Positions 44,138-63,862 of a DNA stretch of 64,000 nt are shown one piece after another (within the stretch, counting starts at the first letter, position 1; every line of letters starts with the position of its first letter). A program made the translations under genes and the position numbers. The notes beneath the pieces are model-generated. The model saw nothing but the letters and a program-made list of their open reading frames with translations. It made no database searches and was not told where the DNA came from. The DNA comes from Plantactinospora mayteni (lineage in GTDB: Bacteria; Actinomycetota; Actinomycetes; Mycobacteriales; Micromonosporaceae): the NCBI RefSeq assembly GCF_016862935.1, contig NZ_BONX01000002.1:310001-374000 (forward strand), written 5' to 3'.

Positions 44138-47100
44138 CCCTTTTGCTCCTTCAGCAACGCCAGGCCGGCCAGCAGGTCGGAATCGGAAAGCTCGTCGATC
44201 TCCGCGCGGATCCGCTCCTCGACCGCCTCGGCGATCCGCGCGATCGTGGGCCGCTCGAAGACGGTCCGGACCGGAAGGTCGATCTCGAACTCCTCCTGGA
44301 TCCGGGAGGCCAGCCGGACCGCGAGGATCGAATGGCCGCCGACGGTGAAGAAGTTCGTCCGGGTACCGGCGTCGACGTCGAGCAGCTCGGCCCAGATCTC
44401 GGCGATCCGCTCCTCGACCGGGCCCTGCGGCGCGACGTACTCCGCGGCGTCCACCTCGGCGACCGTCCGGCCCGGTGCGGGCAGGGCGCGACGGTCGAGC
44501 TTGCCGTTGGCGGTCAGCGGGATCTTCTCCAGCGGCACGAAGACGCCCGGCACCATGTAGTCGGGCAACCGGCCGCCGCAGTGCCCGACCAGCTCGGCGA
44601 CGCTCGGCGGGTTGTCGGCGTCGGACACGTAGTAGGCGACGATCCGCGGCTGGCCCGGCTCCGGCTCGTCGGTCAGCACCACCGCGTCCCGGATTCCCGG
44701 GTACTCGGCCAGCACCGACTCGATCTCGCCCAGCTCGACCCGGTAGCCCCGGATCTGCACCTGGTCGTCGATCCGGCCCAGGAAGTCCAACCCACCGTCG
44801 GGCCGACGCCTCGCCAGGTCACCACTGCGGTACATCCGAGCACCCGGCTCGACCGCGAACGGGTCCGGCACGAACCGCTGCGCGGTCAGCTCCGGCCGGT
44901 TCAGGTAGCCCCGGGCCACGCCGGGACCGCCGACGTGGATCTCGCCGGGTACCCCGATCGGCGCCAGGTTGCCGTAGCCGTCCAGGAGGTAGATCCGCAG
45001 ATCGCTGAGCGGATAGCCGACCGGGTTGCCGGGTGCGGTGATGTCCTGCGACCGCACCAGGTGATAGCTGGAGTGCACCGTCGTCTCGGTGATGCCGTAC
45101 ATGTTCACCAGGGCGGGGCGGTCACCGAACCGGGCCACCCAGGGCGCCAGCTCGGCCATCTCCAGTTTCTCGCCGCCGAAGACCACCGTACGCAGCGCCA
45201 ACCGGTCCAGCCGGGAGTCGCCGTCCCGGGCGAACCCGACCAGGGCGCGGAACGCCGACGGGGTCTGGTTGAGCACCGTCACCCGCTCCCGGACCAGCAG
45301 TTCCAGGAACTCGTCCGGCAGCCGGGTCACCTCGCGCGGCACCACCACCAGCCGACCGCCGTAGACCAGCGCGCCCCAGAACTCCCAGACCGAGAAGTCG
45401 AAGGCGTACGAGTGGAACAGCGTCCACACGTCGTCGGTGGTGAAGCCGAACCGCGGATGGGTGGTGCCGAACAGCCGCAGCACGTTGGCGTGGGTCAGGC
45501 AGACCCCCTTCGGCCGGCCCGTCGACCCCGACGTGTAGATCACGTAGATCAGGTCCTCGGGGTGCGACACCGACGCCGGGTTCTCCGCCGACTGCCCCGA
45601 CAGGTCCTCCTGGTCCAGCACCAGCAGCTCACCGTCGAAGAACCCGGAGACCGTCCCGACCAGCGACGCCTGCGTGACGATCACCGGCGTACCCGCGTCG
45701 CCGACCATGAAGCCCAGCCGGTCCACCGGCTGCGCCGGATCCAGCGGCAGGTACGCCGCCCCGGACTTCAGCACGCCCACCAGGGCCGGGACGAGGTCGA
45801 TGCCCCGCTCCAGGCAGACCCCGACCAGCGAGCCGGAGCCGATCCCGGAGGCGCGCAGCCGGTGCGCCAGCCGGTTCGCCCGGACGTTCACCTCGGCATA
45901 CGTCAGCGAGACGCCCTCGAAGGTCACCGCCACCGCGTCCGGGGCGAGCAGTACCCGCTCCTCGAAGACCTGGTGCAGGCAGCGGTCCGGGGTACCGGTG
46001 CGGAACGGATCGGCCCGGCCGGTGCCGATCAGCTCGTCGACCGGGTCGAGGAAGTCGACCGTGCCGAGCCGCAGCTCCGGATCGGCGGTGACCGCCTGGA
46101 GCAGCCGGACCAGATGCCCGCCCATCCGGTCCACGGTGGAGCGGTCGAAGAGCGCGGTCGCGTACTCCAGGGCGCCGAGCATCGTGCCGTCTTCCTGGAC
46201 CCGGACGAAGAGCGTCAGGTCGGTCTTGGCGATCTGCCACGCCTCGGTGAACGCGGCCAGGTCGTCCGCCTGTACCGCACCGCCGGTCAGTCCCTCGTCG
46301 TGCAGGTCGAAGGCGACCTGGAACAGCGGGGTCCGGGACAGGTCCCGGTCCGGCTGGAGGTCGTCGACGAGCTGCTCGAACGGCAGCGTCTGGTGGGCGA
46401 ACGCGCCCCGGCAGACCTCCCGGGTCGCCTCCAGCGCCTCGCCGAAGCGCATTCCGGCGCTCAGGTTCGGCCGCAGCACCAGGGAGTTGAGGAAGAACCC
46501 GACCATGTCCTCCAGCTCGGGCCGGTTACGGCCGGCCACCGGAGTGCCGACGGCGACGTCCCAGCGGCCGGCGTACCGGGCGAGCAGGGTGCTGAACGCG
46601 GTCAGCATCGTCATGTACGGCGAGGCGCCGTACCGCCGGCCCAGGTCGCGGATCGCGCCGGCCAGCGCGGTCGGGATGGTGAACGGGGCGAGCGCACCCT
46701 TGGGGTCGCGGCGGGCCGGTCGGGGCCGGTCGGTCGGCAGGTCCAGCGGCCCGAGCCCGTCGAGGGTCTTCCGCCAGTACGCCAGCTCGGCCGCCAGCAC
46801 CTCCTGGGTCAGCCAGCCCTGCTGCCAACTCGCGAAGTCCGGGTACTGGACCGGCTGCGCCGGCAGTTCCGGGGTACGTCCGGCCGCCACCGCCGCGCAG
46901 AGTTCCCGCAGCTCCCGCTCCAGCACCACCGACGACCAGCCGTCGCAGGCGATGTGGTGCAGGGTGAGCAGCAGTACCGACTCGCCCGCCGGGGCCCGGC
47001 CGGCGGTGGCCGGAATCCGCACCGAGGTCGGCGGGGTGGGCGTCGGCACGCCCGGGAAGCGGACCAGCAGCGCCCGCCAGACCGGGCCGGTGGCCAGGTT

Positions 47101-49289: not shown

Positions 49290-49505
49290 TCAGCTCTGCG
49301 CCGCCGCCATCCGCTGGCGCAGGCTCAGCGGGCGCATGTCGGTCCAGACCTCGCCGATCCGGGCGAGGCAGTCGGCACGCGGGCCCTCGGTGCCCTCGGC
49401 GTGCCAGCCCGCCGGCAGATCCCGGTCGGCGGGCCAGATGGAGTACTGCTCCTCGTCGTTGCGGACCACCCGGTACACCCGGTCGTCGTTCTGCTCGTCA
49501 GCCAT
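49290..49505 (-). CDS. MbtH-like NRPS accessory protein
   Basis: The 71-residue protein matches the MbtH family: [28 protein letters not shown] and [19 protein letters not shown], with the conserved Trp residues and the S-x-W-P and W-TD-M-RP motifs. MbtH proteins bind adenylation domains and are needed for their folding or activity. It is the only copy in the window and is encoded 29 bp before the first NRPS, so it probably serves all six A domains. GAGGAG lies upstream of the ATG. Confidence 0.96.
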
Positions 49506-49539
49506 CGGAACTCCTCATGATTGGTCTGGGCTCCGGCCG

Positions 49540-49613
49540 GGGCCGGATCACCTGGGACGCAGTGCCGCCCGGAGCGGGCCGGATCACCTGGGATTCGCGG
49601 TGCCGCCCGAAAC
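49540..49613. repeat. 36-bp tandem duplication at the end of the sbnB-like gene
   Basis: GGGCCGGATCACCTGGGA-containing units at 49540-49575 and 49576-49613 are near-identical, including GTGCCGCCCG. The second contains the stop codon (49584-49586) and last codons of the sbnB-like gene, so the first is a duplicated copy of the gene end lying in the gap before mbtH. Confidence 0.75.
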
Positions 49614-50597
49614 GGGCAGGAACTCGTCGACGCGGATGCCGAGGCCACGCTCGACGGCGGCGGCCCGGACGAACTCCGCGAGGGCGATGTCCAGGGCGCC
49701 GAGGCCGAACGGCGAGTAGACCACCGTCCGGTCGGGATCGCGGCGGAAGCCGCCGGTGCCGCGCAGGATCTGGCCGATCGGCGCGTCGATGAAGTCCCGG
49801 TGCCCCACCTGCAACTCGGTGAGGTGCAGCGAGGTCCGCTCCCGGCACACGTGGTCGGCGTCGTCGACCACGTTCTGGCTGGCCAGGATCGTCGCCGGGG
49901 CCAGGTCGCGCAGCGAGACGTGCAGCACCGTGCCGGGCCGGGCCGGGCCGAGGTCGAGGTGCGGCTCGGCCGCCGTGGTGGCGATCGAGACCAGGTCATG
50001 CGCCGCGACGGCCCGGCCGACGTCGGCGGCCAGCGTCACGTGCAGGGTCGGCGAGAGGTCGGCGCAGTCCCGGGCGAACGCCGCCGCCCGGGTGCAGTCG
50101 CTGTCGAAGAGGGTCACCTCGGTCAGCGTGGGCAGCGCGGCGAGCAGGAAGCGCAGTACCTCCAGGTTGATCACGCCGCAGCCGATCAGCGTCACCCCGC
50201 TCGGGCCCGGCTCGCGGACCAGCAGCCGGGCCGCGAGCGCGGCACTGGCCGCGGTCCGCTTGGCCGAGATCACCGAGCCTTCGAGCAGTGCCGTCGGCTG
50301 CCCGGTCTCCAGATCGTTGATCACGATCGAGGCGCTGGCCCGGGCCAGCCCGGCGGTGATGTTCCCCGGCCAGGAGGCGATCCACTTCATCCCGGCGGCC
50401 GGCGACTTCCCGCCGACGTACGCGGGCAGCCCGATGATCCGGTTGCGGGGCTGGTCGGGAAAACGGAGGAACGTCGAGTGCGGCACCGCGGTGGCGCCCT
50501 CGTCGTGCAACTTGTACGCCTCGCCGACCAGCTCGATCAGCGCGAGTTCGCGCTCGGCGAGGATCTGTTGCACGTCGTCATGTCGAAGGATCAGCAT
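49584..50597 (-). CDS. SbnB-like dehydrogenase (ornithine cyclodeaminase family) for 2,3-diaminopropionate
   Basis: The 337-residue enzyme of the ornithine cyclodeaminase/mu-crystallin family has the substrate segment GMKWIASWPGN, the NAD-binding fold VTLIGCGVINLEVLRFLL (about 153-170) and VVYSPFGLGALDIALAEF near the end. In the siderophore and viomycin pathways such proteins (SbnB, VioK) oxidatively cleave the N-(1-amino-1-carboxyethyl)glutamate made by SbnA to give L-Dap and 2-oxoglutarate. It is coupled to the sbnA-like gene by a TGATG junction. The pair strongly predicts Dap as a pathway building block. Confidence 0.9.
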   Translation of the reverse strand: MLILRHDDVQQILAERELALIELVGEAYKLHDEGATAVPHSTFLRFPDQPRNRIIGLPAYVGGKSPAAGMKWIASWPGNITAGLARASASIVINDLETGQPTALLEGSVISAKRTAASAALAARLLVREPGPSGVTLIGCGVINLEVLRFLLAALPTLTEVTLFDSDCTRAAAFARDCADLSPTLHVTLAADVGRAVAAHDLVSIATTAAEPHLDLGPARPGTVLHVSLRDLAPATILASQNVVDDADHVCRERTSLHLTELQVGHRDFIDAPIGQILRGTGGFRRDPDRTVVYSPFGLGALDIALAEFVRAAAVERGLGIRVDEFLPVSGGTANPR

Positions 50598-51697
50598 CAG
50601 GCCTGATCACCACCGGCAGCTTCCTTCCAGAGGTGCGAAACTTCACCGAAGCGGCTCCGTACCCAGTCGTCGGAATAGATCGTGCCGAGGTAGCGGTCGC
50701 CACCGTCGGGGAAGATGAGCACGCATTTCGCGCCCTCGGGAATGGTCGGGCTGCGCCGTTCCAGGGCGGCGACGGTGGCCCCGGAGGAACCGCCGGCCAG
50801 GATCGCCTCCCGGGCGGTGAGCCGGCGGCAGGCGGCGACGCACTCGAGGTCGGTCACGTGGATGACCTCGTCGGCGGCGTCCGGGTCGAAGAGTCCCGGC
50901 CGCAGCGACGCACCGTGTCCGGGCAGTAGCCGCTCGATCGGCTGCTGCCCGTCGAAGATCATGCTGCCGACGGCGTCGACCGCGACGATCTTCGTCTTCA
51001 GCCCGTGCTCGCGGACGTAGTCCGCGCAGCCGCGCAGGGTGCCGCAGGAACTGACCGCACAGAACAGGTAGTCGACGGAACCGTCGAGCGCCTCGACGAT
51101 CTCGCCCATGGTCTGCCGGTGCGCGATCGGGTTGAGCGGGTTCGCGTACTGGTTGGGCCAGAACGCGTGCGGGGTGTTCGCCACCAGTTCGCGGACCCGG
51201 CGTACCCGCACCGGCAGGTACTCGCCGCTGTCCGGGTCGGGCCGGTTCACCACCTCGACCGACGCCTGGTACGCCCGCAGTATCGCGATGTTCTGTTCGG
51301 TCGTCTTGGCGTCCACGACACAGACGAACCGGAGCCCGAAATACCGGCAGATCTGGGCGAGCCCGACCGCCAGGTTTCCCGAGCTGGACTCGACCACCAC
51401 CGATCGGCCCGGCTGTAGCTCGCCGCTGCGGATTTTGTCCAGCAGCATGCTCAGTGCGGTCCGATCCTTGACGCTGCCGCCGGGATTGAACCGCTCCAGT
51501 TTCGCGAACACCTTAATTCGTGAATCCGGTATCAGACGTTCGAGTTCCACCAGAGGCGTGTTCCCGACGGCCGAGAGGATGCCCTTCAGCGCGTGCGGTG
51601 AACCTTTTTCAACCTCCCCTTGCGGTTGGTCGTGGCCGCCGGTGGAGGACGGCGTGCAGGCGCCGCGCTCTCCAGGTTGTAAGAGGTCCATTGGCAC
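50597..51697 (-). CDS. SbnA-like PLP-dependent synthase for 2,3-diaminopropionate
   Basis: The 366-residue fold-type II PLP enzyme of the cysteine synthase family has NPGGSVKDRTA with the PLP lysine, VVVESSSGNLAVG in the position where CysK has PTSGNTG (the SSSGNL form fits SbnA), and ILAGGSSGATVAAL for cofactor phosphate. SbnA joins O-phosphoserine and glutamate to make the Dap precursor. An extra N-terminal segment of about 40 residues precedes the usual ILSAVGNTPLVEL start. GTG 51697 and ATG 51691 are alternative starts with AAGGGAAAG upstream. It is the first gene after a strong terminator, so it probably opens the NRPS operon. Confidence 0.9.
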   Translation of the reverse strand: MPMDLLQPGERGACTPSSTGGHDQPQGEVEKGSPHALKGILSAVGNTPLVELERLIPDSRIKVFAKLERFNPGGSVKDRTALSMLLDKIRSGELQPGRSVVVESSSGNLAVGLAQICRYFGLRFVCVVDAKTTEQNIAILRAYQASVEVVNRPDPDSGEYLPVRVRRVRELVANTPHAFWPNQYANPLNPIAHRQTMGEIVEALDGSVDYLFCAVSSCGTLRGCADYVREHGLKTKIVAVDAVGSMIFDGQQPIERLLPGHGASLRPGLFDPDAADEVIHVTDLECVAACRRLTAREAILAGGSSGATVAALERRSPTIPEGAKCVLIFPDGGDRYLGTIYSDDWVRSRFGEVSHLWKEAAGGDQA

Positions 51698-51891: not shown

Positions 51892-51910
51892 ACAGGTCCG
51901 ATGTGGGCGG

Positions 51911-54403
51911 TTACTCGCGTACGCCGGCCAGCTCGACCGCGCGGGACCGGAACGCCAGCCGGACCGGCACCACGGCACCGAGTACGGCCAGTCCGGCGCT
52001 GATCACCGTGATCACCGCGACGGTGCCCCACGGCACGCTGACCGGGGTGGCCCCGACGAGCTGCCCCAGGGCGAGCCGTACCCCGGCCAGGTTCACCGCC
52101 GACGCCCCCACCGCGAGCAGTACGCCGACGCCGGCCACCAGCAGCGACTCGGCGGCGAAGACCCGCAGCACCTGTGGCGGGGTGGCCCCGGCCAGCCGCA
52201 GGATCGCCAGGTCCCGGAGCCGGTCCGAGGTCGCCATCACCAGCGTGTTGACGATGGCGATGAAACAGAAGACGATCGCGATGCCGAGCACCAGCAGCAT
52301 GCCCAGCGAGGTCGTCTCGCTGTTCTCGCTGCTCTCCTCGCCGAGCCAGTCCTCGGCCGCGATCGCCCGGGCACCCTGCCCGGCGGTGGCGGACTCCAGG
52401 GCGGCCCGGACGGTCGCCGGGTCGGTGCCGTCGCGCAGCGAGACGTAGACCCGGCGGGCCAGCCCGGTGAAGGCGTACTTGGCGGTGCCGGCGTACTTGG
52501 TGCTCAGGTAGGCGACGTCGTTGCTGCCGGAGGTGGTGTTCAGCACCGCCACCACTCGCAGCGGCACGGTACTGCCGTCGGCCATGAAGACCTCGACGGT
52601 CTCGCCGACCCCGACCCCCCAGTCGTCGTTGACGACGATGCTGTCGTCGCGCAGGTCGGCCGGGTTGCCCTCGTCGACCGGCAGGGTCAGGGTGCTGGAC
52701 AGGGCCGCCGGGTCGACGGCCAGCGCCTCGTAGTCGGCGAGTCGGGCGTCGTCCCGGGCGTACACCATGGTCGGCAGCGCGGCGACCACGTCGACGCCGG
52801 GGATCGCCCGGACCCGTTCGGTGACCGCCTCGTTGACTCCGGGCGTACCGTCCGGGGTGACCACGAAGTCGGCGGTGACCTGGTTGCGCCGGCCGCTGTC
52901 CTTGGCCCGGTCGATGGTCGCGGCGGCACCGAGCAGCGAGATGGAGAGCCCGACGGTGAGCAGCACCGGCGCGGCGGTGGCCGCGGTACGCCGCACCGCG
53001 GTCAGCGCGCTCTCCCGGACCAGCATCCCGGCGGCACCGCCGAGCCGGCCGAGCGGCCAGGTGATCAGCCGGGCGATCGGCTTGACCACCACCGGGGCGA
53101 GCAGCGCGAAGGCGAGGATCGGGAACATCAGCACCCCGATGTACCGGGTCGGCACCATCACCATGCCCGGGTTCACCAGCGCCACCCAGCCGATGGTGAC
53201 CAGGCCGAAGGCCAACGCCATCAGCCCGTAGAGCCACCGGCCGGAGGTCATGGTGCGGGTGTCCACGGCGGCGTCCCGGAGCGCCTCGATCGGGCGTACG
53301 TCGCCGGCCCGGCGGGACGCCGCCCAGACCCCGGCCAGCGCCACGCCCATTCCCATGCAGAACGCGATCAGCAGCGGCACCCAGACCGCCGGACCGGTGG
53401 AGAACTCGACGGTGAACCACGGCGGTGCGAGCCCCAGGTCGACCATCCAGCCGGCCAGCAGCGGCGCGGTACCCAGTCCGAGGGCGCAGCCGGCGACCGC
53501 GGAGCCGAGCCCGACCACGAACGCCTCGGTCAGCACCATCCGGCGTACCTGCCGGGGTGTCGCGCCGACCGTGCGAAGCAGCGCGATCTCCCGGCGCCGC
53601 TGGGCGACCGCGAAGGCGAACGTCGAGGCGACCAGGAAGATCGAGACGAAGCCGGCGACCACGGCGGTGATCGGCAGCAGCGTCTGGGTGTTGTCGATCG
53701 CCTCCCGGTCGGCGTTGTAGCTCGGGTCCAGCACGTTGCGCCGGTCTCCGGTGAGCACCTCGGCGTCGCCGCCGACGGCCTGCCGTACCGCCTCCGGCGC
53801 CCCGTAGGCGACCAGCGCCTCGACCCGGGGCGAGAGCCGGGCCGCCTCGGCCTCGGTGAAGAAGACCGCGGACTCGAAGTCGGCCGGCGCGGTCACCCCG
53901 GCGACGGTGTAGTCCTGTGGCCCGCCGGTGGTGAAGACGGTGACCCGCTCGCCCGGTCCGGCACCGCCGCTCGGCACCACGACCTCGGAGTCGGCCTGCG
54001 GTGCCCGGCCGGCGGCCAGCGCGTACGGCGCGAACTCGGCGCTGGACCAGCCGTGTCCGACCTGGTCGTCGGGGCCGCCGGAGAGCTGGGCGTAGAAGGA
54101 GCGGACCGGTACGGTGCGGCCCAACGCGCCCACCTCGGCGGCCAGCGTCTCCGAGATGCCCCGGGCCTGGATCAGCGAGCGGCTGCCCGGGTCGTGCCGG
54201 GCCGGATCCCACTCCGGGTCGAGCGCGGCGACCACCACCGGGGCGGCGGCGAACCGCTGCGGCGCCCGTTCCGGCAGCCCCAGGGTGGCGCCGATCTCCA
54301 GCCCCATGGCGGCGATCATCGCGGCGCCCAGGGTCAGCGCGACGAACGTACCGACGAAGGCGGCCCAGCGCACCCGCAGCGTCTGCAAGGCGATACTCAG
54401 CAC
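51911..54403 (-). CDS. FtsX/MacB-like ABC transporter permease
   Basis: The 830-residue protein has an N-terminal helix, an extracytoplasmic MacB-type domain (about 45-260), three helices around 270-400, a second helix group near 430-480, another extracytoplasmic domain (about 500-690) and three final helices (about 700-825, ending VRLAFRSRAVELAGVRE). The FtsX motif VGATPRQVRRMVLTEAFVVGLGSA and its second copy LAGATPPQVLRVFAAESLLVAGVGVLL mark the two FtsX domains. With the ATPase it should act as an efflux or mechanotransmission-type transporter for the lipopeptide (export or self-protection). GTG 54403 overlaps the ATPase stop by 7 bp. Confidence 0.92.
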   Translation of the reverse strand: MLSIALQTLRVRWAAFVGTFVALTLGAAMIAAMGLEIGATLGLPERAPQRFAAAPVVVAALDPEWDPARHDPGSRSLIQARGISETLAAEVGALGRTVPVRSFYAQLSGGPDDQVGHGWSSAEFAPYALAAGRAPQADSEVVVPSGGAGPGERVTVFTTGGPQDYTVAGVTAPADFESAVFFTEAEAARLSPRVEALVAYGAPEAVRQAVGGDAEVLTGDRRNVLDPSYNADREAIDNTQTLLPITAVVAGFVSIFLVASTFAFAVAQRRREIALLRTVGATPRQVRRMVLTEAFVVGLGSAVAGCALGLGTAPLLAGWMVDLGLAPPWFTVEFSTGPAVWVPLLIAFCMGMGVALAGVWAASRRAGDVRPIEALRDAAVDTRTMTSGRWLYGLMALAFGLVTIGWVALVNPGMVMVPTRYIGVLMFPILAFALLAPVVVKPIARLITWPLGRLGGAAGMLVRESALTAVRRTAATAAPVLLTVGLSISLLGAAATIDRAKDSGRRNQVTADFVVTPDGTPGVNEAVTERVRAIPGVDVVAALPTMVYARDDARLADYEALAVDPAALSSTLTLPVDEGNPADLRDDSIVVNDDWGVGVGETVEVFMADGSTVPLRVVAVLNTTSGSNDVAYLSTKYAGTAKYAFTGLARRVYVSLRDGTDPATVRAALESATAGQGARAIAAEDWLGEESSENSETTSLGMLLVLGIAIVFCFIAIVNTLVMATSDRLRDLAILRLAGATPPQVLRVFAAESLLVAGVGVLLAVGASAVNLAGVRLALGQLVGATPVSVPWGTVAVITVISAGLAVLGAVVPVRLAFRSRAVELAGVRE

Positions 54404-55140
54404 GCGCCGACCTCCATGCGCGTCATCCGGGCGGCGATCGCCTCCGCCGTCGGGTTGACCAGTTCACCGGCGAGCACCCCGTCGGCGAGGAAGACCACCC
54501 GGTCCGCGTTGGCGGCGGTCACCGGGTCGTGCGTGACCATCACGATGGTCTGCCCGTGCCGGTCGACCAGGCCGCGCAGCAGCGCCAGCACCTCCCGGCT
54601 GGTGCTGGTGTCCAGCGCGCCGGTCGGCTCGTCCGCGAAGAGCACCGCCGGCTTCGTCACCAGGGCGCGGGCGATCGCGACCCGCTGCTGCTGGCCGCCG
54701 GAGAGCTGCGCCGGGCGATGCCCGCCCCGGTTGCCGAGGCCCACCTCGGCGAGTACCTCCGCCACCTGGGACCGGCTCGGCTTGCGGCCGGCCAGCCGCA
54801 GCGGCAGCGCCACGTTCTGCTCGGCGGTCAGCGACGGCAGCAGGTTGAACGCCTGGAAGACGAAGCCGATCTTGTCTCGCCGGAGCAGGGTCAGCGCGGT
54901 CTCGCTCAACCCGGTCAGGTCGGTGCCGCCGATCACCACCCGGCCACCGGTCGGCCGGTCCAGCCCTGCCGCGCACTGCAACAGGGTCGACTTGCCCGAG
55001 CCGGACGGCCCCATGATCGCGGTGAAGCTTCCGGCCCGGAGATCGAGCGACACGTCTCTCAGGGCGGTCACCGCGTTCTGACCCGAACCGTACGTCTTGC
55101 TCAGCGACTCCAGCCGCACAGCCTGCTCCATAGCGAGCAT
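54397..55140 (-). CDS. ABC transporter ATPase (LolD/MacB/SalX type)
   Basis: The 247-residue ATPase has Walker A MGPSGSGKSTLLQ, the Q-loop FVFQAFNLLPSLTAEQNV, the signature LSGGQQQRVAIARAL, Walker B AVLFADEPTGALD and switch THD. DEPTGALD and FNLLPSLT are typical of the MacB/LolD group that pairs with FtsX-like permeases. ATG 55140 and ATG 55131 are both possible starts. It lies 174 bp after the condensation-domain gene, so it may have its own promoter as well as read-through from the lipid genes. Confidence 0.94.
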   Translation of the reverse strand: MLAMEQAVRLESLSKTYGSGQNAVTALRDVSLDLRAGSFTAIMGPSGSGKSTLLQCAAGLDRPTGGRVVIGGTDLTGLSETALTLLRRDKIGFVFQAFNLLPSLTAEQNVALPLRLAGRKPSRSQVAEVLAEVGLGNRGGHRPAQLSGGQQQRVAIARALVTKPAVLFADEPTGALDTSTSREVLALLRGLVDRHGQTIVMVTHDPVTAANADRVVFLADGVLAGELVNPTAEAIAARMTRMEVGAC

Positions 55141-55244
55141 CCAATCACTGTTCGTTAGATCGACACATGAGATACCACCCTGAGAACCCCCGGACCGGCG
55201 ACCCTGAGCTATCCCGGGTTTCGGACGGTTCCCTGCGTGTCACC

Positions 55245-55264
55245 GACCTTTCTCGACCTTCCCT
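55245..55264. promoter_or_regulatory. short direct repeat upstream of the ABC exporter genes
   Basis: CGACCTTTCT (55245-55254) is followed at once by CGACCTTCCC (55255-55264). Short direct repeats about one helical turn apart in front of a gene are the usual form of SARP binding sites, but the 10-bp rather than 11-bp spacing makes this tentative. It lies about 105-125 bp before the ATPase start. Confidence 0.3.
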
Positions 55265-55314
55265 TGCGGTCGGACGCGGTGTGCGAGCGCCACGCGGTTC
55301 AGGTTGAGAAAGGT

Positions 55315-56811
55315 TCACTGCCCGGGCGAGACCCCGCCGGTTCCCAAAGCGAGCAGTTGTTCCAGTTGTGCGCTGTCGACAAGGGAGACCCGGTCGATCC
55401 GGCGCGTCGGGTCGGCGGTGGCCGCCTCCAGCAGCCGGCGGTAGTGCCCGGTAAGCCGCTCTATGGTCGCACCGTCGAACAAATCCGTGTTGTACCGGAA
55501 GACTCCGGTGAGTGAATCCTCCGCCTGCCGCAGCTCCACGTTGAGGTCGAACTGCCCCTCCATCTGCGGGACGTCGAACGCGGCCAGCCGCAGCCCGGCG
55601 TAGGAGATCTCCGGGCCGACGACGGCGCCCTCCGGCAGCAGCGGCAGCGGCGGGTCGAGCCGGTCCGCCGCCACCATCGTGAAGGCGATCCGGAACAGCG
55701 GTGACCGGCTGGTGCCCCGGGCTCCGCCGAGCATCCGGTCCAGCAGCGGGAACGGGTAGCCGGCGTGGGCCAGTCCGGAGAGGAGTTCCCGGTGTGCCGC
55801 CGCCACCGCGTCGGCGAAGGTGGCCCCGGGGGCGAAGGACGAACGCAACACCAGCGTGTTGACCAGGTAGCCGACCACGTCCCGCAGCCCCCGGCCGTGC
55901 CGGGTCGCCACCGGGCAGCCGACCGCGAAGTCGTCCTGGCCGCCGTACCGGAACAGGGTGGCCTGGAAGACCCCGAGCATGAAGGCGAACGGGGTGACCC
56001 GGGCCGCCGTGGCCGCCGCCCGGACCCGGGCCGCCAGCTCGTCGGGCAGCCGCCAGTGCTGGGTCGCCCCGTCGAACGTCTGCCGCTCCGGCCGGGGCCG
56101 GTCGACCGGGATCGCCCCGGCCGCCACCCCGGTGCAGCGGTCCCGCCAGTACCGCTCCAGCCGGTCGCGGCGGGGCGAGTCGAGGAGTACCCGCTCCGCC
56201 TCGACGTGGTCCAGGAAGCTCGCGGTCAGCGGCGCCCAGTCCGGCTCGGCACCGGCCGCGATCCCCCGGTAGCCGGCCAGCAGGTCGCGCAGCAGCAGCC
56301 ACTGCGACATGGCGTCGCTGATGATGTGGTGGGTGACCAGTACCAGGGCGGCGTCGTCGGCGGACCGGCGCAGCAGCACCACCCGGAAGACGTCTGCGGC
56401 ACCGAGCCGGAACGGCACCTCGCCGACCGACCGGGCCAGCCCGAGCAGCGCCTCGTCGGTACGGCCGGGAACGTCCCGGATCTCCAGCCACCGGGAGGCG
56501 GTCGTCCCGGCCCCGGCCACCGGAGCGGCCGGCGGCAGGAACTGCCGGGGTACCCCGTCGACCTCGGCGAAGGCCGCGCCGAGCACCGGATGCCGGGCCA
56601 CCAGCGCGTCGACCGCCCGGGCCAGCGCCGCCCCGTCCAGCGCGGTCCGGACCCGGACCGCGAGCGCGATGTTGTACGCCGGGCTCTCCGGCGCGAGCTG
56701 GTGGAGGAACCAGAGCGCCTCCTGCCCGACCGAGAGCGGATGGCCGGGGCCGGGCCGCGACTCCTCCGGCCCGGCCGACGGCTGGCCCGACCCGGTCGAC
56801 TGAACCGCCAT
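55315..56811 (-). CDS. free-standing NRPS condensation domain protein
   Basis: The 498-residue protein is a single condensation domain with the start motif LSVGQEALWFLHQLAP, the catalytic THHIISDAMSQW (HHxxxD intact), the later GCPVATRHGRGLRDVVGYLVNTLVLR, and a final FDLNVELR/YNTDLFDGATI region. No adenylation or carrier domain is present. The first NRPS has no N-terminal C domain and lipid-activation genes lie just upstream, so the simplest role is transfer of the ACP-bound acyl chain to the first residue (lipoinitiation in trans). The start ATG at 56811 is only some 15 bp from the left end of an inserted IS element, which separates it from the ACP gene. Confidence 0.9.
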   Translation of the reverse strand: MAVQSTGSGQPSAGPEESRPGPGHPLSVGQEALWFLHQLAPESPAYNIALAVRVRTALDGAALARAVDALVARHPVLGAAFAEVDGVPRQFLPPAAPVAGAGTTASRWLEIRDVPGRTDEALLGLARSVGEVPFRLGAADVFRVVLLRRSADDAALVLVTHHIISDAMSQWLLLRDLLAGYRGIAAGAEPDWAPLTASFLDHVEAERVLLDSPRRDRLERYWRDRCTGVAAGAIPVDRPRPERQTFDGATQHWRLPDELAARVRAAATAARVTPFAFMLGVFQATLFRYGGQDDFAVGCPVATRHGRGLRDVVGYLVNTLVLRSSFAPGATFADAVAAAHRELLSGLAHAGYPFPLLDRMLGGARGTSRSPLFRIAFTMVAADRLDPPLPLLPEGAVVGPEISYAGLRLAAFDVPQMEGQFDLNVELRQAEDSLTGVFRYNTDLFDGATIERLTGHYRRLLEAATADPTRRIDRVSLVDSAQLEQLLALGTGGVSPGQ

Positions 56812-56945
56812 CAGCAGCCGCCTAAGAAACCGCTGGCTTGAGCCATGGGGAGGACAGGGCGGTCAGGCGTGGTGTTAGTTCTCGGCATGGCGGCGGCTCC
56901 TCTGTGGGGCAAAACCTGTCGGATGCGGCTGGGATGCTTCCGGGT

Positions 56946-58139
56946 GTGGACGAGACGGTGCGGTACACCTACCGGTTGCGCCCCGGCGCGACCGCGCGGG
57001 CCGCGCTGTTGGCCGAATGGGGACGCTGCCGCTGGCTGTGGAACGAGGCCGTCCACCAGTACAAGACCGGGCGTAGGCCAACCCTCGGCAAGCTGTCGAA
57101 GCTGCTGACCGAGGCGCGAGCCCGCTCGTCGTGGCTGCGGGACGGGTCCCAGGTCGCGCAGCAGCAGACGTTGCGTACCTACGCTCTCGCCCTTCAGCAC
57201 TCCTTCAGGGTGAAGGGACGCGGCCGGCCGAGGGTCAAGCGGCTGAAAGGCACGCTGCCCAGCCTCGAATACACCAGGCGTGGGTTCTCGATCCGCGACC
57301 AGCGGCTTCGACTGCCCGGCGGCGTCACCATTCCGGTCGTCTGGTCCCGTGAGCTGCCGCCCGATCCGACCAGCGTCCGCGTCTACCAGGACAGCCTCGG
57401 GCACTGGTACGCCTCTTTCGTCGTCCGCCGCCAAGCCACACCCGCGCCCGATGTCGCGGGGGCGATCGGTATCGACTGGGGCGTCACCACGACCGCGACG
57501 ACCACCGACCCCACCTACGACCTGCCGTACCTCGGCCACCGAAAACGGTGCGCCGCCGAACTCGCCAAACTCCAGCGCCGGATGGCCCGCCGCCGGCGCC
57601 TGAGGGGTGTCACACCGTCGAAGGGCTACCTGCGGGCCAAACGGCAGGCAGCGAAGGTCGCGAAGAAGGCGGCCCGGCAGAACACCCACGACGCCCGCGT
57701 CTGGGCGAAGAAGATCGTCGACAACCACGCGACGATCGCGATCGAGGACTTCAAGCCAAAGTTCCTCGCCAAGTCCCGGATGGCGCGTAAGGCCGCTGAT
57801 GCGGCGATTGGGGCGGCGAAGCGGGAACTTGTCGACCGTGGCCGGCGGGCGGGCCGGAAGGTGGTGTTGGTGCCGCCCGCCTACACCACGATGACCTGCT
57901 CGCAGTGCGGTACGAGAGCCAAGCACCGCCTCGGGCTGGGTGTCAGAGTCTTCCGGTGCGACACCTGCGGGTACACCGCGGGTCGGGACCGGAACGCCGC
58001 GAGGACGATCCTCGCCACGGCAGAACGCGGCCGTGCTGGTGCCGACGACGTGAGACATGCGATCACCTCCTTCCGGAATGGTGGTCGGGTGCGGTCCGAG
58101 CCAGAAATCCCCCGGCTTCCAGCCATGGGGAGGCGTTAA
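56946..58139 (+). CDS. tnpB: TnpB (IS605 OrfB) RNA-guided nuclease family protein
   Basis: The 397-residue protein has the TnpB layout: an N-terminal helical/WED-like part starting VRYTYRLRPGATARAALLAE, a split RuvC nuclease with GIDWGVTTTAT (Asp near 177), IAIEDF (Glu near 266) and GRDRNAAR (Asp near 348), and a four-Cys zinc ribbon CSQC...CDTC (about 318-340). All catalytic residues are present, so it may be active. The GTG at 56946 is chosen because family similarity begins there; an ATG at 56934 and a longer frame from 56838 exist. Its TAA stop (58137-58139) is at the element's last bases. It is the only plus-strand gene in the cluster. Confidence 0.9.
   Translation: MDETVRYTYRLRPGATARAALLAEWGRCRWLWNEAVHQYKTGRRPTLGKLSKLLTEARARSSWLRDGSQVAQQQTLRTYALALQHSFRVKGRGRPRVKRLKGTLPSLEYTRRGFSIRDQRLRLPGGVTIPVVWSRELPPDPTSVRVYQDSLGHWYASFVVRRQATPAPDVAGAIGIDWGVTTTATTTDPTYDLPYLGHRKRCAAELAKLQRRMARRRRLRGVTPSKGYLRAKRQAAKVAKKAARQNTHDARVWAKKIVDNHATIAIEDFKPKFLAKSRMARKAADAAIGAAKRELVDRGRRAGRKVVLVPPAYTTMTCSQCGTRAKHRLGLGVRVFRCDTCGYTAGRDRNAARTILATAERGRAGADDVRHAITSFRNGGRVRSEPEIPRLPAMGRR
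58000..58139 (+). ncRNA. candidate omega RNA (reRNA) overlapping the 3' end of tnpB
   Basis: TnpB systems transcribe a guide RNA from the right end of the element that overlaps the gene's 3' end. Here the last bases form the hairpin CCCCCGGCT-TCC-AGCCATGGGG and end GTTAA; the following host sequence, CCCCGGGACCCCAGGAGGCC, would be the guide. The 5' limit is arbitrary and transcription is not shown. Confidence 0.4.
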
Positions 58140-58405
58140 CCCCGGGACCCCAGGAGGCCGTGCAGGTAGCCGGCGAGGGCGTTCACGGTCGGGTGGTCCC
58201 AGGCCATCGTCGGCTCCACCTCGAGGTCGAACCGCTCCTCCACGTCCCCGCTCAGGGTCATCGCGTAGACCGAGTCGAGGCCGATCTCGACCAGCGGCGC
58301 GTCGGCGTCGATCTCCTCGGCCGACCGTTGCAGGTAGAAGGCGATCCGGCCGACCAGCCAGGTACGGATGGCCTCGACGGACGTGTCTTGGATGGTTCCG
58401 GACAT
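58136..58405 (-). CDS. acyl carrier protein for the lipid chain
   Basis: The 89-residue carrier protein has the phosphopantetheine site VEIGLDSVYAMTL with Ser45, and the helix VEERFDLEVEPTMAWDHPTV after it. AAGGAG lies seven bases before the ATG. In related clusters a FAAL loads the fatty acid onto such an ACP, acyl-CoA-dehydrogenase-like enzymes desaturate it there, and a condensation domain transfers it to the peptide. Its TAA stop (58138-58136) lies in the terminal TTAA of the inserted IS element, so the original last codons or stop may have been altered. The end LHGLLGSRG is nevertheless a normal length for an ACP. Confidence 0.93.
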   Translation of the reverse strand: MSGTIQDTSVEAIRTWLVGRIAFYLQRSAEEIDADAPLVEIGLDSVYAMTLSGDVEERFDLEVEPTMAWDHPTVNALAGYLHGLLGSRG

Positions 58406-58437
58406 GGTGCACTCCTTCGACGTACGGACGGGGTTGG

Positions 58438-60159
58438 TCAGCCGGCGAGGTGCCGGTTGACGAGATCGAAGCCGCGGTTCTCCTCGTGACGCTCCAGCAG
58501 CTCGATGAAGAGGTGTCGCTCCAGCCCGTCCGGTGCCGCGCCCGGGTCGAGGCCCAGCCGTCCGGCCAGCCGGGACAGCGCGGCGAGCAGCCACGGGGTG
58601 TCCCGCAGGAACGGGTCGTCCTGGTTGTGCCACCACACCCCGAGGCAGGCGGCGGCGGCCAGCACGGTCGCGTACCGGTCGGTCAGGTCGAAGCTGCGCC
58701 GGCCGGCGATCACCGTACGGTCCCGGGGCGGCAGCTCGGCGCAGACCTCGGCGAGCCGGTCGAGTTCGGCGGTGAAGAGCCCGCAGAGCCGGGCGACCGC
58801 CGGATCGTTGCCCGGTCCGGCGAGGTACTCCCGGAGCGTGGCGGTCAGGCTGTCCATCCCCCGGGCGGAGAGCCCAAGGCCGGCGAAGTCCAGCGGGGGC
58901 AACGGGTCGGCGAGCCGGAACAGTGCCGGCGGCGGAGGCGGGCTGGACCGCCAGCCCTGCTGGGCCAGCCGGGGCAGTTGCGGGATGATCGTCGCCTGGC
59001 AGACCGCCGCGCTGGCGTGGGTGAGCGTCGCGGCGAGCAGGTCCCGCAGGTTCTTCTGGAAGATCGCGTACGGGCCGTCCCGCAGGTACGACCGCGCGCC
59101 GAGTACCACCGAGAGCCGGTGCGCCGCCTCCTGCAACAGCTTCGGCACCAGGTATTTCACGGCCGCGCTGTACACACTGGTCTGCTCCGGCAGCACGTGC
59201 AGGGCCCGGGCGACCACGGTGGCCAGGCAGTCGCTGATCAGCAGGTCCAGGAAGCCGTCGACCAGGGTGGCCCGGGCGTGCGGCAGCTCGGCCACCGGCA
59301 TCCCGTACAGCCGGCGGTCGAGGGCGAACCGCAGCACCGTACGCAGTTGGGTGTCGACGATCCCGACCGCCATCCCGGGCAGTACGCCCCGGGTCACCTG
59401 GAACGCCCGCAGCACCGTCTCCATCGCACTGCCGAGGTCGCCGACGACGGCGTCGGCCGGTACCGGGCAGTCGGTGAACTCCAGCCCGCCGAGCAGTACC
59501 CCGCGGACACCGGCGGTGTGGTAGCGGCGGAGGTGCCGGCGGTGCGCCGCCGGCAGCGCGGCCATGTCCAGTAACAGGTGTGAGTGGCTGCGGCTGCCCA
59601 GCCGGTCGTCGGTGCGGGCGAAGAGGGTCACCGCGTCCGCCCGGCTCAGGTTGCCGACCATCTCCTTGCGACCGGTCACCACGAAGTGGTCGCCGTCGAG
59701 CCGGGCCTGCAGCGCGGCCCGGCCGAAGTCGGTGCCGTGCGCCAGCTCGTTGTAGCCGGCCGACGCCTTGCCGTGCCGCAGCAGCAGGTCGGCCATCCAG
59801 CGCCGCTGCTCGGCGGTGCCACTGGTCCAGACCGGGGTGGCGGCGATGAAGGTGGTGACCCCGTAGCCGACCCCGAGGGTGGTGTCCCGGCGGAACACCG
59901 CGCGCAGCACCTGGGCCAGCCGGTCGGCCCGGTCGAACCGGCCGCCGAGGGCCCGGGGCACGAACTCGGCGTTCAGCCCGTACCCGTCGAGCGCCCGCTC
60001 GCCCTCGGCGAGCAGTTCGCCGCGCTCGTCGGCGGCGAGCACCGCCGGATAGCCGACCGGGTTCGCCGGGTCGTGCGGATCCCCGAGGTACGCCTCCAGG
60101 TCCGGCTCGGAGCCGAGGGCCGGGGCCGTGCCGGGCACGGGAGCGGTGTCGACGGTCAT
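58438..60159 (-). CDS. acyl-CoA dehydrogenase-like enzyme acting on the lipid chain (second of two)
   Basis: The 573-residue protein has the acyl-CoA dehydrogenase layout: helical N-domain, a middle beta domain (YNELAHGTDFGRAALQARLD, LEFTDCPVPADAVVGDL) and a C-terminal helical domain (TVLRFALDRRLYGMPVAELP). It also carries a roughly 170-residue C-terminal extension, in place of the usual 380-400-residue size. It is a divergent paralogue of the upstream gene (both begin with a GDP-x-DPA-P segment). ATG 60159 overlaps that gene's stop as ATGA. Paired enzymes of this kind occur in ramoplanin and enduracidin clusters, where conjugated dienoyl chains are made. Confidence 0.88.
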   Translation of the reverse strand: MTVDTAPVPGTAPALGSEPDLEAYLGDPHDPANPVGYPAVLAADERGELLAEGERALDGYGLNAEFVPRALGGRFDRADRLAQVLRAVFRRDTTLGVGYGVTTFIAATPVWTSGTAEQRRWMADLLLRHGKASAGYNELAHGTDFGRAALQARLDGDHFVVTGRKEMVGNLSRADAVTLFARTDDRLGSRSHSHLLLDMAALPAAHRRHLRRYHTAGVRGVLLGGLEFTDCPVPADAVVGDLGSAMETVLRAFQVTRGVLPGMAVGIVDTQLRTVLRFALDRRLYGMPVAELPHARATLVDGFLDLLISDCLATVVARALHVLPEQTSVYSAAVKYLVPKLLQEAAHRLSVVLGARSYLRDGPYAIFQKNLRDLLAATLTHASAAVCQATIIPQLPRLAQQGWRSSPPPPPALFRLADPLPPLDFAGLGLSARGMDSLTATLREYLAGPGNDPAVARLCGLFTAELDRLAEVCAELPPRDRTVIAGRRSFDLTDRYATVLAAAACLGVWWHNQDDPFLRDTPWLLAALSRLAGRLGLDPGAAPDGLERHLFIELLERHEENRGFDLVNRHLAG

Positions 60160-62024
60160 CGGGCCACCTCGGAAAGCTGTGCGGCCGTTCCGGCGGACCG
60201 CGCCGGAGACTCGGACGCCTGCGGGGCCGGTTCGGCGAGCCGGGACGGCGACTCGGAGTGCTGGGCGCCCGCCTCGGCGAGCCGGGCCGGCAGCAGGGAG
60301 AAGAGCCGACCCTCGTGGTGCTGGGCCCGCAGGTCCGGCAGCAGCCGGTCGTAGTCCTCGCCGTCGTCGGAGCCGGACCCGGTCGCGGTGGCCGGGCGGA
60401 GCTGCCCGATCAGCCGGTGCAGGCAGGCGCGCAGCCAGCGGGCGTCCGCCCAGAGCGGCGCGGTCGGCCCGTCGGAGAGCCAGTGCCGGTTGCGCAGCCA
60501 CAGGTGCAGGCAGGCGGCGGCGGCGAAGGCGAGCGCGTACTCGCCGGCCATGCCGAACGCCTCGGCCGGCACCTGCCGGGGCTGCGGCCGGTACGCCGCC
60601 ATCCGCTCGTGCAGCCCGTCAACCAGCCCGGCCAGCGTCTCGGCCTGTACGGCCAGGGCCGGCGGGGCGATGCCGGCGTCGACCAGCTCCAGTACCTCGG
60701 CGACGGCGGCCGGCAGGTGCTGGACCACGCTGCACCCGGTCCGGGAGAGCAGGGCGAGGCGGCTCCGGTCGAAGTCCGGCAGCGGCCGGGCCAACTCGAC
60801 GGTGTCGACCAGCCCCGGGTCGACCACGCCCCGCCGGTAGCCCCGGACCAGGCCGGGGAACTGGTTGACCAGGGTGTTCAGGTTGACCAGGGTGTTGCCG
60901 TCGAAGATCCCGACGATCCGGTGGTCGCGTTCGATCTTCTGGAACAGCCCGTCGGCGTGGTCCTCGGTGAGCAGGGCGCGGGCCCCGAGCACCTGGCCGA
61001 GCCGCGGGATGGTCCGGTCCATCATCGTCGGCACCAGGTATTTGGCGACCGCCGAGGTGACGCTCAGCTCGCCGGGCGTGGCGTGGATGCCGCGCGCGGT
61101 CAGCACGCTGGTCGCCTCGCCGATCAGCAGGTCGACGTACGCCTCGGTCAGGGTGCGGTTCGCGTGCGGCAGGTCGACCAGCGGTCGGTCGTACAGCCGG
61201 TGCCCGGTGGCGAAGTCGAGGACCAGCCGCAGCGCCTGGTCGGCCAGGCCCAGCGACATCGCCGCGCACATGGTGCGGGTGAGCTGGACACTCTTCAGCA
61301 CGATCTCCGGGCCGGCGCCGGTCGCACCGAGCAGCGCCTCGGCCGGCACCTCGGCGCCGGTGAAGGCGATCCCGCTGATGTCGGCGCCGCGTACCCCGTG
61401 GGTCCGCTCCTTCGGCAGACAGCGGAAGGTACCGGGGGCGAGCCGTCGCTTGTCCACCAGCAGCAGGCTGAAGCCCCGGGTGCCGCCGGCCGGTTCGGTC
61501 CGGGCCAGTACGCAGACCAGGTCACCCCGGCTGGCGTTGTTGATCAGCCACTTCTCGCCGTCGACCCGGTAGCCGTCCCCGGTCGGCACCGCCGACACCT
61601 CACCGGCGAGCAGATCGCTGCCGTGCTCCCGCTCGGTCAGCGCCAGCGAGATGACGCTGCCGGCCAGCACCTCGGCACCGACCCTCCGAGCCTGCTCCGG
61701 AGTGGCGCCCACCCAGGCGGAGACCGCGCCGAGGTACGTCTTGCCGTGTCCGATCGCGACGGTCAGGTCCCGGCGGGCCAGGATCCGTACCGCGTGCAGC
61801 AGTTCCTCGTAGCTGCGCAGCTCGCCACCGTACTCGGCCGGTACGTAGAAGCGGGGCAGCCCGAGCCGGTCCAGTTCGGCGCAGATCTCCGCCGGGAACT
61901 CCTCCCGGCTGTCCAGCGCGACGCAGCGGGCGAACGAGGCCGGCCGGGCCGGGTCGCGCGGGTCGCCGAGGCCGTGGTCGAGGTGTTCGGCGAGGGCGAA
62001 GGCGGGATAGCGCATCCCGGTCAC
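60156..62024 (-). CDS. acyl-CoA dehydrogenase-like enzyme acting on the lipid chain (first of two)
   Basis: The 622-residue flavoenzyme has ISLALTEREHGSDLLAGEV and GEKWLINNASRGDLVCVLAR in the FAD/substrate region, then GIAFTGAEVPAEALLG, LVLDFATGHRLYDRPLVDLP and IVGIFDGNTLVNLN in the C-terminal helical domain, which are all acyl-CoA dehydrogenase hallmarks. A long C-terminal extension is shared with its paralogue downstream. It should introduce a double bond into the ACP-bound acyl chain. GTG 62024 overlaps the FAAL stop as GTGA; ATG 62015 is an alternative start. It lies between the FAAL and the second dehydrogenase in a tightly coupled unit. Confidence 0.9.
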   Translation of the reverse strand: MTGMRYPAFALAEHLDHGLGDPRDPARPASFARCVALDSREEFPAEICAELDRLGLPRFYVPAEYGGELRSYEELLHAVRILARRDLTVAIGHGKTYLGAVSAWVGATPEQARRVGAEVLAGSVISLALTEREHGSDLLAGEVSAVPTGDGYRVDGEKWLINNASRGDLVCVLARTEPAGGTRGFSLLLVDKRRLAPGTFRCLPKERTHGVRGADISGIAFTGAEVPAEALLGATGAGPEIVLKSVQLTRTMCAAMSLGLADQALRLVLDFATGHRLYDRPLVDLPHANRTLTEAYVDLLIGEATSVLTARGIHATPGELSVTSAVAKYLVPTMMDRTIPRLGQVLGARALLTEDHADGLFQKIERDHRIVGIFDGNTLVNLNTLVNQFPGLVRGYRRGVVDPGLVDTVELARPLPDFDRSRLALLSRTGCSVVQHLPAAVAEVLELVDAGIAPPALAVQAETLAGLVDGLHERMAAYRPQPRQVPAEAFGMAGEYALAFAAAACLHLWLRNRHWLSDGPTAPLWADARWLRACLHRLIGQLRPATATGSGSDDGEDYDRLLPDLRAQHHEGRLFSLLPARLAEAGAQHSESPSRLAEPAPQASESPARSAGTAAQLSEVAR

Positions 62025-63862
62025 CCCCGCCCGGCCGGCACCGGCAGCGCGGCACGCTCGGCCCGGTAGCGGTTCCGGACCTCCAGATCGAGATCCTCGT
62101 ACGTCGCGTCCAACACACCGGAGACGAAGAGTTCCCGCATCATGGTCCGCTGGATCTTCCCGCTGGTGGTCCGCCGGACCTGCCCGACCCGGACGAAGAC
62201 GACGTTCGCCACCCGGACCCCGAGGATCCGGCTCAGCGTCGACTTGACCGCACCGGCCAGCCCGGCGATCTCGGCGGCGTCCCGGCTCCGGGTCCGGAGT
62301 TCCTGGACGACCACGATCTCCTCCCGGGGCGCCGGCACCGCGAAGACCGCGCAGGGCAGCCCGGCGAACGCCTCGGCCACCTCCCGGACCTCGCGCTCCA
62401 CGTCGTGCGGGTAGAGGTTGCGGCCGTGCACGATCATCATTTCCTTGATCCGGCCGGTGACGTACAGCTCGCCGTCGTCGAAGATGCCGAGGTCACCGGT
62501 ACGCAGGAAACCGCCGTCGCCGTCCGCGGTCACCGCGCCGAAGGCCCGCCGGGTCGCCTCCGGGTCCCCCCAGTAGCCCCGGGTCACGCTGCCGCCCCGG
62601 ATCCACACCTCGCCGACCCGACCGTCCGGCAGCACCGTGGAGGTGCCCGGGTCGATGATCCGTACGTCCAGCGCGTTGACCCGGCCGCTGCCGACCAGGG
62701 CCAGCCCGGCCGGCGTACCGTCCGGGAGCGGGGCGAAGACGTCCCGGGCCAGTTCCACGGGGTCGACGTGCGCGGTGACGGGGCGGCCGGCCGGGCGGGC
62801 CCCGGTGACGCAGAGGGTCGCCTCGGCCAGCCCGTACGTCGGCAGGAACGACTCGTAGCGGAAACCGGCCGGGGCGAACCGGGCGGCGAACCGCTCCAGG
62901 GTGGCCGGGTCGACCGGCTCGGCACCGTTGCAGGCGTACCGCCAGCGGGACAGGTCCAGCCCGGCGACCTGCTCGTCGGTGAGCAGCCGGGCGCAGAGGT
63001 CGTACGCGAAGTTCGGCGCGCAGGCCACCTCGGCGCCGTACCGGTCGATCGCCTCCAGCCACAGGTGCGGGCGCTTGAGGAAGTCGTTCGGCCGGATCAG
63101 CACCGCCGTGCTGCCGAGCAGCAGCGGCGCGATCAGCATCGCGATCAGGCCCATGTCGTGATAGAGCGGCAGCCAGCTACAGAACCGGGTCTGGTCGGTC
63201 CAGCCGAGGGTGCGGTGCACCGAGCCGATGTTGTGCAGCACGTTGCCGTGGGTGACCATCACGCCCTTCGGGTCGCTGGTCGACCCCGAGGTGTACTGCA
63301 GGAACGCGATGTCGTCCGGGCGGGCCGGATAGGGCCGCCACTGCCCGTCCGCCGCCGGCCCGGCGGTGTCGGTCGGCTGCGCCGGCCCGGTCGGGTCGCC
63401 CGTGCCGGTGACCACGGCCGGGGCGCCGATATCGGTCGCCGCGAAGGCCAGGTGGTCCAGTCCCTCCTGGAGCATCCAGTCGTCGACGGCCCGCAGGTTC
63501 TCCGGATCGGTCAGTACCACCGCCACGTCGGCGTTCCGGGCGATCGCGCTGGTCCGGTCGGCGTGGTGCCGGTAGTTCGCCGGCAGCGGCACCGGTACCG
63601 GGATCACGCCCGCGTACAGGCAGCCGAGGAAGCCGGCCACGAACTCCAGCCCGGTCGGATAGAGCAGCAGGGCCCGGTCACCCGGCCGGCACCGCTGGCC
63701 CAGCCAGGCCGCCGTCGCCCGGGCCACCCGGTCGAGTTCGGCGTACGTCAGGGACGTCTCGACGAACCGCTCCCCCGCACCACGGCAGAACACCACCGCC
63801 TGCCGTTCCGGCGATCCGACGACGTTCTGCCGGACCGCCTCGACGATGCTTCCCTTGGACAC
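62021..63862 (-). CDS. fatty-acyl-AMP ligase (FAAL) that loads the lipid starter
   Basis: The 613-residue adenylating enzyme has QYTSGSTSDPKGVMVTH (P-loop, about 190-206), SWLPLYHDMGLIAMLI, CAPNFAYDLCAR, CNGAEPV, PTYGLAEATLCVTG, FLRTGDLG and the C-terminal lysine motif SGKIQRTMMRELF. This is the canonical FAAL motif set; such enzymes form acyl-AMP and transfer the chain to an ACP. All motifs are intact, unlike in the paralogue at 23029-24825. GTG 63862 has GGGGAAG six bases upstream. It heads the lipid unit FAAL-dehydrogenase-dehydrogenase-ACP with overlapping genes. Confidence 0.94.
   Translation of the reverse strand: MSKGSIVEAVRQNVVGSPERQAVVFCRGAGERFVETSLTYAELDRVARATAAWLGQRCRPGDRALLLYPTGLEFVAGFLGCLYAGVIPVPVPLPANYRHHADRTSAIARNADVAVVLTDPENLRAVDDWMLQEGLDHLAFAATDIGAPAVVTGTGDPTGPAQPTDTAGPAADGQWRPYPARPDDIAFLQYTSGSTSDPKGVMVTHGNVLHNIGSVHRTLGWTDQTRFCSWLPLYHDMGLIAMLIAPLLLGSTAVLIRPNDFLKRPHLWLEAIDRYGAEVACAPNFAYDLCARLLTDEQVAGLDLSRWRYACNGAEPVDPATLERFAARFAPAGFRYESFLPTYGLAEATLCVTGARPAGRPVTAHVDPVELARDVFAPLPDGTPAGLALVGSGRVNALDVRIIDPGTSTVLPDGRVGEVWIRGGSVTRGYWGDPEATRRAFGAVTADGDGGFLRTGDLGIFDDGELYVTGRIKEMMIVHGRNLYPHDVEREVREVAEAFAGLPCAVFAVPAPREEIVVVQELRTRSRDAAEIAGLAGAVKSTLSRILGVRVANVVFVRVGQVRRTTSGKIQRTMMRELFVSGVLDATYEDLDLEVRNRYRAERAALPVPAGRG

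Follow-up and report, generated by a model that had tools for sequence, protein, structure and literature searches.

A free-standing condensation protein of Plantactinospora mayteni as the probable trans-acting starter of a lipopeptide synthetase

Gene content of the locus

We analyzed a 64,000-nucleotide stretch of the Plantactinospora mayteni genome (NZ_BONX01000002.1, positions 310,001 to 374,000; hereafter the window), in which a condensation (C) protein is encoded by a gene of its own within a nonribosomal peptide synthetase (NRPS) cluster. Along the reverse strand, the acyl part of the cluster runs FAAL, two acyl-CoA dehydrogenases, an acyl carrier protein (ACP) and the standalone C, with a forward-strand TnpB gene between the last two. 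An ABC ATPase, an FtsX permease, SbnA, SbnB, MbtH, NRPS1, NRPS2 and NRPS3 follow, and beyond NRPS3 lie an MFS gene, two TauD dioxygenases, a second AMP ligase close in type to FAAL, and a SARP regulator (coordinates in Table 1). An earlier note, made from the letters of the window, had described the C gene as adjoining the ACP and FAAL genes. Both genes are real, but the two dehydrogenases lie between FAAL and ACP and, in the window strain, TnpB lies between ACP and C.

The standalone C protein has an ATG start and 498 residues, and its sole Pfam family is Condensation (PF00668, residues 25-487, E 9.9e-78). As the earlier note had it, this is a single C domain with an intact HHxxxD motif, here HHIISDA. 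His161, His162 and Asp166 were invariant among 20 relatives, and the position following the motif Asp varied (A, G, F or N). AlphaFold gave a confident C-domain fold (pLDDT 84.5, pTM 0.83), and the top PDB structure matches found by Foldseek were all NRPS C or C-like domains. The full-domain match, motif and fold thus place the protein in the NRPS condensation superfamily. Across Plantactinospora the protein was 78-89% identical and dN/dS of the gene was 0.31-0.47 (0.07-0.54 for neighboring genes); the gene is under purifying selection and is not a chance open reading frame (ORF). The residue after HHxxxD was also considered as a starter-type signature and rejected, as Ala occupies this position in internal C3 domains of these clusters too.

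Domain count of the synthetase

NRPS1 has the order A-T-C-A-T (A, adenylation; T, thiolation), and A1 begins about 20 residues past the start codon with no C remnant ahead of it. Over NRPS1-3 we counted six A, six T and five in-line C domains. Five in-line C domains suffice for the five peptide bonds among six residues, and the bond between the acyl chain and residue 1 is therefore the only one without a cis catalyst. Two claims of the earlier note, that the first NRPS begins with adenylation and that its first residue cannot be N-acylated in cis, were borne out by this count.

Distribution and pairing with the ACP gene

The standalone C gene was present in five of seven Plantactinospora genomes, including the window strain, and in 28 of 355 Micromonosporaceae genomes at a cut-off of E < 1e-75, in most cases as an open frame of 450-600 residues. 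Relatives outside the family were found in Nonomuraea, Streptomyces, Solihabitans and Lentzea. The split arrangement occurred in more than 30 actinomycete loci, nearly always with an ACP gene alongside. In 24 of the 27 family relatives, as well as in the Nonomuraea and Streptomyces named above, this gene lay immediately 5' of the C gene, and at these junctions the ACP stop and C start overlapped by 1 or 4 nt or were separated by at most 4 nt. The junctions of G002, G003 and G006 were read directly from sequence, as the automatic start calls were off.

Upstream of the ACP-C pair we found FAAL and two dehydrogenases in Plantactinospora, G103, Nonomuraea, Streptomyces, Lentzea and Solihabitans, and KASIII with FabG/FabA/FabZ-like genes in most other family members; a single change of cassette type is needed on the C-domain tree. 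The tight coupling to the ACP gene across genera with two types of acyl cassette supports an acyl-ACP as the donor. Downstream, nearly all loci continued with SbnA-SbnB-MbtH-NRPS1, the last beginning with an A domain. Two Streptosporangiaceae loci have another FAAL gene, the second, directly 3' of the standalone C gene (L086 11726-13414, L090 11550-13220).

When the start of NRPS1 was used as query, 31 close matches were obtained in the family, and 27 of the 31 genomes carried the standalone C. G043 has, in place of it, another standalone C following a polyketide synthase (PKS)-type ACP (L171), and G353 has a fused C. G014 and G016 are A-first and lack the standalone C, and the stretch read there showed no FAAL, KASIII or ACP. 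In more distant clusters whose A1 is of this kind (L177, L185, L187, L190), the C is fused and groups with LCL domains, which makes the module an elongation module. From the comparison of matched clusters with and without it, the standalone C tracks the acyl cassette and not the diaminopropionate genes.

This comparison bears on the possibility that the standalone C acylates some other target, such as the beta-amine of diaminopropionate, a free amine or an amino acid, leaving the N-terminus of residue 1 free or acylated by other means. SbnA and SbnB genes adjoin the standalone C in most relatives, free-standing C domains taking soluble amines are known (OaaC and VibH; PMC13142362), and the DA tail of the motif resembles the OaaC class, in which Ala follows Asp in 36%. 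However, NRPS1 was A-first in every standalone-C cluster in which it was read, and clusters that share SbnA/B, the carbamoyltransferase (OTC) and the A1 code, but have a fused LCL C or no acyl cassette, have no standalone C. We regard another acceptor as unlikely.

Four further loci (L180, L181, L182, L183) have OTC, SbnA, SbnB, MbtH and an A-first NRPS; the two whose A1 was read have the different code DAFQVGVIN. Neither an acyl cassette nor a standalone C was seen at these loci, which are possibly unacylated relatives.

Phylogeny of the condensation domains

In an IQ-TREE analysis of 84 C-domain rows, the standalone proteins formed one clade (support 100/98) whose sister was the N-terminal fused C of Amycolatopsis iheyensis, itself encoded behind FAAL and ACP genes (100/100). 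Both fell inside a larger clade (98/99) whose other members, from several other phyla, are nearly all encoded behind FAAL-ACP or PKS-ACP. As these relatives had been fetched by similarity, an independent set of starters was gathered via FAAL; with this set added, the standalone C was again placed in the ACP-fed clade (100/99). The internal C domains of the same clusters lay outside it, in LCL and DCL-like groups.

Placement among LCL domains, set beforehand as the outcome that would speak against a starter role, was not found. Forcing the standalone clade into LCL cost 78 log units, with an approximately unbiased (AU) test p of 0.004 that is only indicative because the first tree had been seen before the groups were named. 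A reading of the protein as an ordinary elongation domain of the LCL type, detached from its module and acting elsewhere in the line, is consistent with the LCL-type C domains that top its PDB sequence matches. Against it stand the AU result, the presence of a cis C for each of the five internal bonds, and the fact that the C gene is coupled to an ACP gene and not to one for an NRPS; we consider it very unlikely.

The earlier note had proposed comparison with C-starter domains, and here the tree separated role from lineage. Three canonical fused FAAL/ACP starters (L233, L236, L238) formed a separate clade near DCL (100/100), and a fourth FAAL-derived fused starter (L228) grouped with internal domains. 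The standalone C differs from the canonical C-starters (CIII) in fusion, being a separate ORF beside an A-first NRPS1, and in clade, lying apart from fused FAAL/ACP starters of the same family. Therefore, two unrelated C lineages appear to serve the same kind of FAAL-ACP cassette. Judged by this tree, the standalone C is not a canonical C-starter by descent, and the nesting of its clade among fused domains suggests an origin by fission.

TnpB insertion between the ACP and C genes

Of the five Plantactinospora genomes that carry the C gene, only that of the window strain has TnpB between ACP and C. The four empty sites in the relatives read CGGGGATGA, with ATGA shared by the ACP stop and the C start. 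A TnpB-only element occupies this site in the window strain, inserted exactly at CGGGG^ATGA, and both ends of the insert carry AGCCATGGGGAGG. The insert gives ACP a new stop and leaves the C start unharmed, with both reading frames intact. The element is multi-copy, with about eight further copies in the genome at 79-88% identity.

The separation of the ACP and C genes by an opposite-strand TnpB raises the possibility that the C gene of the window strain is a decaying remnant, inactive since the insertion, and dN/dS was slightly higher in pairs with the window copy (0.36-0.47) than in others (0.31-0.35). Yet the reading frame and active site are intact, an ACP stop and the C start are kept, and similar dN/dS values were obtained for the gene of the second dehydrogenase, whose neighbors still adjoin it. 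Decay of the C gene is in our judgment extremely unlikely. Loss of constraint after the insertion was also considered and is unsupported, the dN/dS values giving no clear sign of decay.

Proposed role of the standalone C

Attachment of the lipid tail is normally built into module 1 of an NRPS. Here, domain bookkeeping, gene coupling and phylogeny argue that the standalone C is very probably the starter condensation domain, in detached form, of a lipopeptide synthetase with six modules and would acylate residue 1 in trans. In the proposed pathway, FAAL would, as expected from its family, load an acyl chain onto the free-standing ACP, and the two acyl-CoA dehydrogenase-like enzymes may desaturate it, as proposed for rotihibin (PMC8552735). 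Acyl chains would probably also be supplied by a type II fatty-acid cassette upstream, outside the window (L084 722-15883), which has its own acetyl-CoA carboxylase subunits alongside ketosynthases, SDR reductases and an ACP. The standalone C would then take acyl-ACP as donor and the aminoacyl-T1 of the A-first NRPS1 as acceptor and make the N-acyl bond in trans, and C2-C6 would carry out the five later condensations. Donor, acceptor, reaction and acyl-peptide product are those that we infer from these lines of evidence.

Several points weigh against this assignment. The closest PDB sequences by pairwise score are LCL-type C domains and not the CDA or RzmA starters, and the canonical fused starters form a clade of their own, as described above. 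The starter-like comparison domains were retrieved by similarity to the query, and the AU groups were named after the first tree. Four loci (G079, G354, G262, L128) have a standalone C without an adjacent ACP, although in G262 an ACP homologue sits on the FAAL contig. In the window strain the TnpB insertion may lower co-expression of ACP and C. A literature search for a description of the cluster or its product found none.

The trans lipoinitiation claimed in the earlier note is thus supported as to role, by the ACP coupling, the placement in the ACP-fed clade and the position outside LCL; as to lineage, a canonical starter is not what was found. The note had also called a trans-acting starter unusual, which holds against the textbook fused arrangement, whereas the split form is normal for clusters of this type.

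The A1 code (window 47701-49200, reverse strand), DAWQFATID, was invariant across the standalone-C clusters read and is close to what we take to be the Gln code. Given this code, SbnA/SbnB and the OTCase-family carbamoyltransferase, our guess is that residue 1 is a ureido analogue of Gln, albizziine (2-amino-3-ureidopropionate). The later codes, set against those we assume for known residues, predict Thr, Thr-like, Asn-like, Asn-like and Gly-like. We give about even chances to a broader proposal, of a widespread, hitherto unnamed family of dedicated trans lipoinitiation C proteins whose ancestor was a fused ACP-fed starter rather than a canonical C-starter, in which a translationally coupled ACP-C pair, served by FAAL or KASIII cassettes, acylates a residue 1, probably albizziine, on a separate A-T-first NRPS.

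A separate tail-attachment protein paired with its own ACP would be a natural, exchangeable acylation unit, and would imply more than one origin of lipoinitiation in the evolution of C domains. Cluster-mining rules that seek a fused C-starter will miss such lipopeptides. The split arrangement also allows a direct functional test in a simple three-protein assay (ACP, C and an A-T didomain).

Other features of the cluster

Table 1. Annotated features of the window, with the evidence for each
Feature	Coordinates	Strand	Evidence
Standalone condensation protein, proposed trans-acting starter C	55315..56811	-	PF00668, invariant catalytic residues, AlphaFold/Foldseek C fold, tree
TnpB (IS605-type, RNA-guided endonuclease family), outside pathway	56838..58139	+	NF040570, E 3e-65; junction against four empty sites; genomic copies at 83-88%
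Free-standing ACP, 89 aa, GLDS motif, proposed acyl donor carrier	58136..58405	-	PP-binding PF00550, translation, pairing with C gene in relatives
Acyl-CoA dehydrogenase-like protein 2	58438..60150	-	PF00441; kept in relatives
Acyl-CoA dehydrogenase-like protein 1, proposed acyl-ACP desaturation	60156..62024	-	PF00441/PF02770/PF02771
FAAL (fatty acyl-AMP ligase), proposed ACP loader	62021..63862	-	AMP-binding and FAAL NCBIfam models
ABC transporter ATPase	54397..55140	-	ORF and conservation
FtsX-type ABC permease	51911..54403	-	PF02687
SbnA-family 2,3-diaminopropionate enzyme	50597..51697	-	TIGR03945 above cut-off
SbnB-family 2,3-diaminopropionate enzyme	49584..50597	-	TIGR03944 above cut-off
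MbtH-like protein	49290..49505	-	PF03621, E 7e-21
NRPS1, A1-T1-C2-A2-T2, proposed acceptor (aminoacyl-T1)	44134..49260	-	Domain reading; A1 code DAWQFATID
NRPS2, C3-A3-T3-C4-A4-T4-C5-A5-T5-C6	33089..44137	-	Domain reading
NRPS3, A6-T6-beta-lactamase/PBP-type domain-OTCase-family carbamoyltransferase	28947..33095	-	Domain search

In NRPS3 the A-T, beta-lactamase/PBP-type and OTCase domains are fused in one ORF, and in several relatives OTCase is a separate gene. Macrocyclizing or hydrolytic release is a possible function of the beta-lactamase/PBP-type domain. The second FAAL-like AMP ligase (23029-24825, reverse strand) is 52% identical to the first FAAL, is kept in all five Plantactinospora clusters, and maybe attaches a second acyl group. 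The two adjacent TauD-family dioxygenases (25348-27292, reverse strand) are candidate beta-hydroxylases of the two Asn residues that the codes predict. An Rfam scan of 49000-64000 gave no match.

Three C domains of NRPS2 (reverse strand) lack HHxxxDG and read CHAIIEGWS (C4, 39479-40768), SHPITEGWS (C5, 36287-37585) and CHAITEGWS (C6, 33125-34411), the first His being lost and Asp replaced by Glu. We counted 57 such domains at matching positions in 24 loci. Their best PDB matches are McyA and AmbE, whose domains we take to be dehydrating (CmodAA-type), and dehydro-residues in the product are therefore likely.

Comparison with known systems

The rotihibin cluster of Streptomyces scabies (PMC8552735) shares with the window cluster FAAL, two acyl-CoA dehydrogenases, ACP, an ABC transporter, six modules with Thr and Asn, and an Asn oxygenase; it differs in reductase release, where the window cluster has the beta-lactamase-type domain. 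This comparison is one of gene content and domain architecture. The canonical C-starter systems (CDA and daptomycin type; L233, L236, L238) likewise combine FAAL, a free ACP and one C for the first bond, and L233 and L236 even share the order FAAL, two dehydrogenases, ACP, but their C is fused to module 1.

OaaC of gut fatty-acid-amide pathways is a free-standing C that takes acyl-ACP and acts on soluble small amines (PMC13142362). Both it and the standalone C are single C proteins, and Ala after HHxxxD is frequent in the OaaC class; the OaaC-type motif is (D/H)HxxxDS with a variable last residue. They differ in acceptor, free small amines for OaaC and, as evident partner of the standalone C, an A-T-first NRPS. 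No standalone C acylating the first-module aminoacyl-T1 of a lipopeptide NRPS was described in the literature searched, a search whose scope left out most subscription journals.

For PchP4-C1 of pachycephalamide, lipoinitiation has been proposed for a C domain classed as LCL and not as a canonical starter (PMC11446937); as with the standalone C, the proposed function lies outside the canonical starters, in a different cluster. The sister of the standalone clade in Amycolatopsis iheyensis (L094) is 40% identical and carries its C in a fused C-A-T protein behind FAAL and ACP. No SbnA or SbnB was found in the stretch read there, and the fusion of C to A sets it apart from the standalone proteins.
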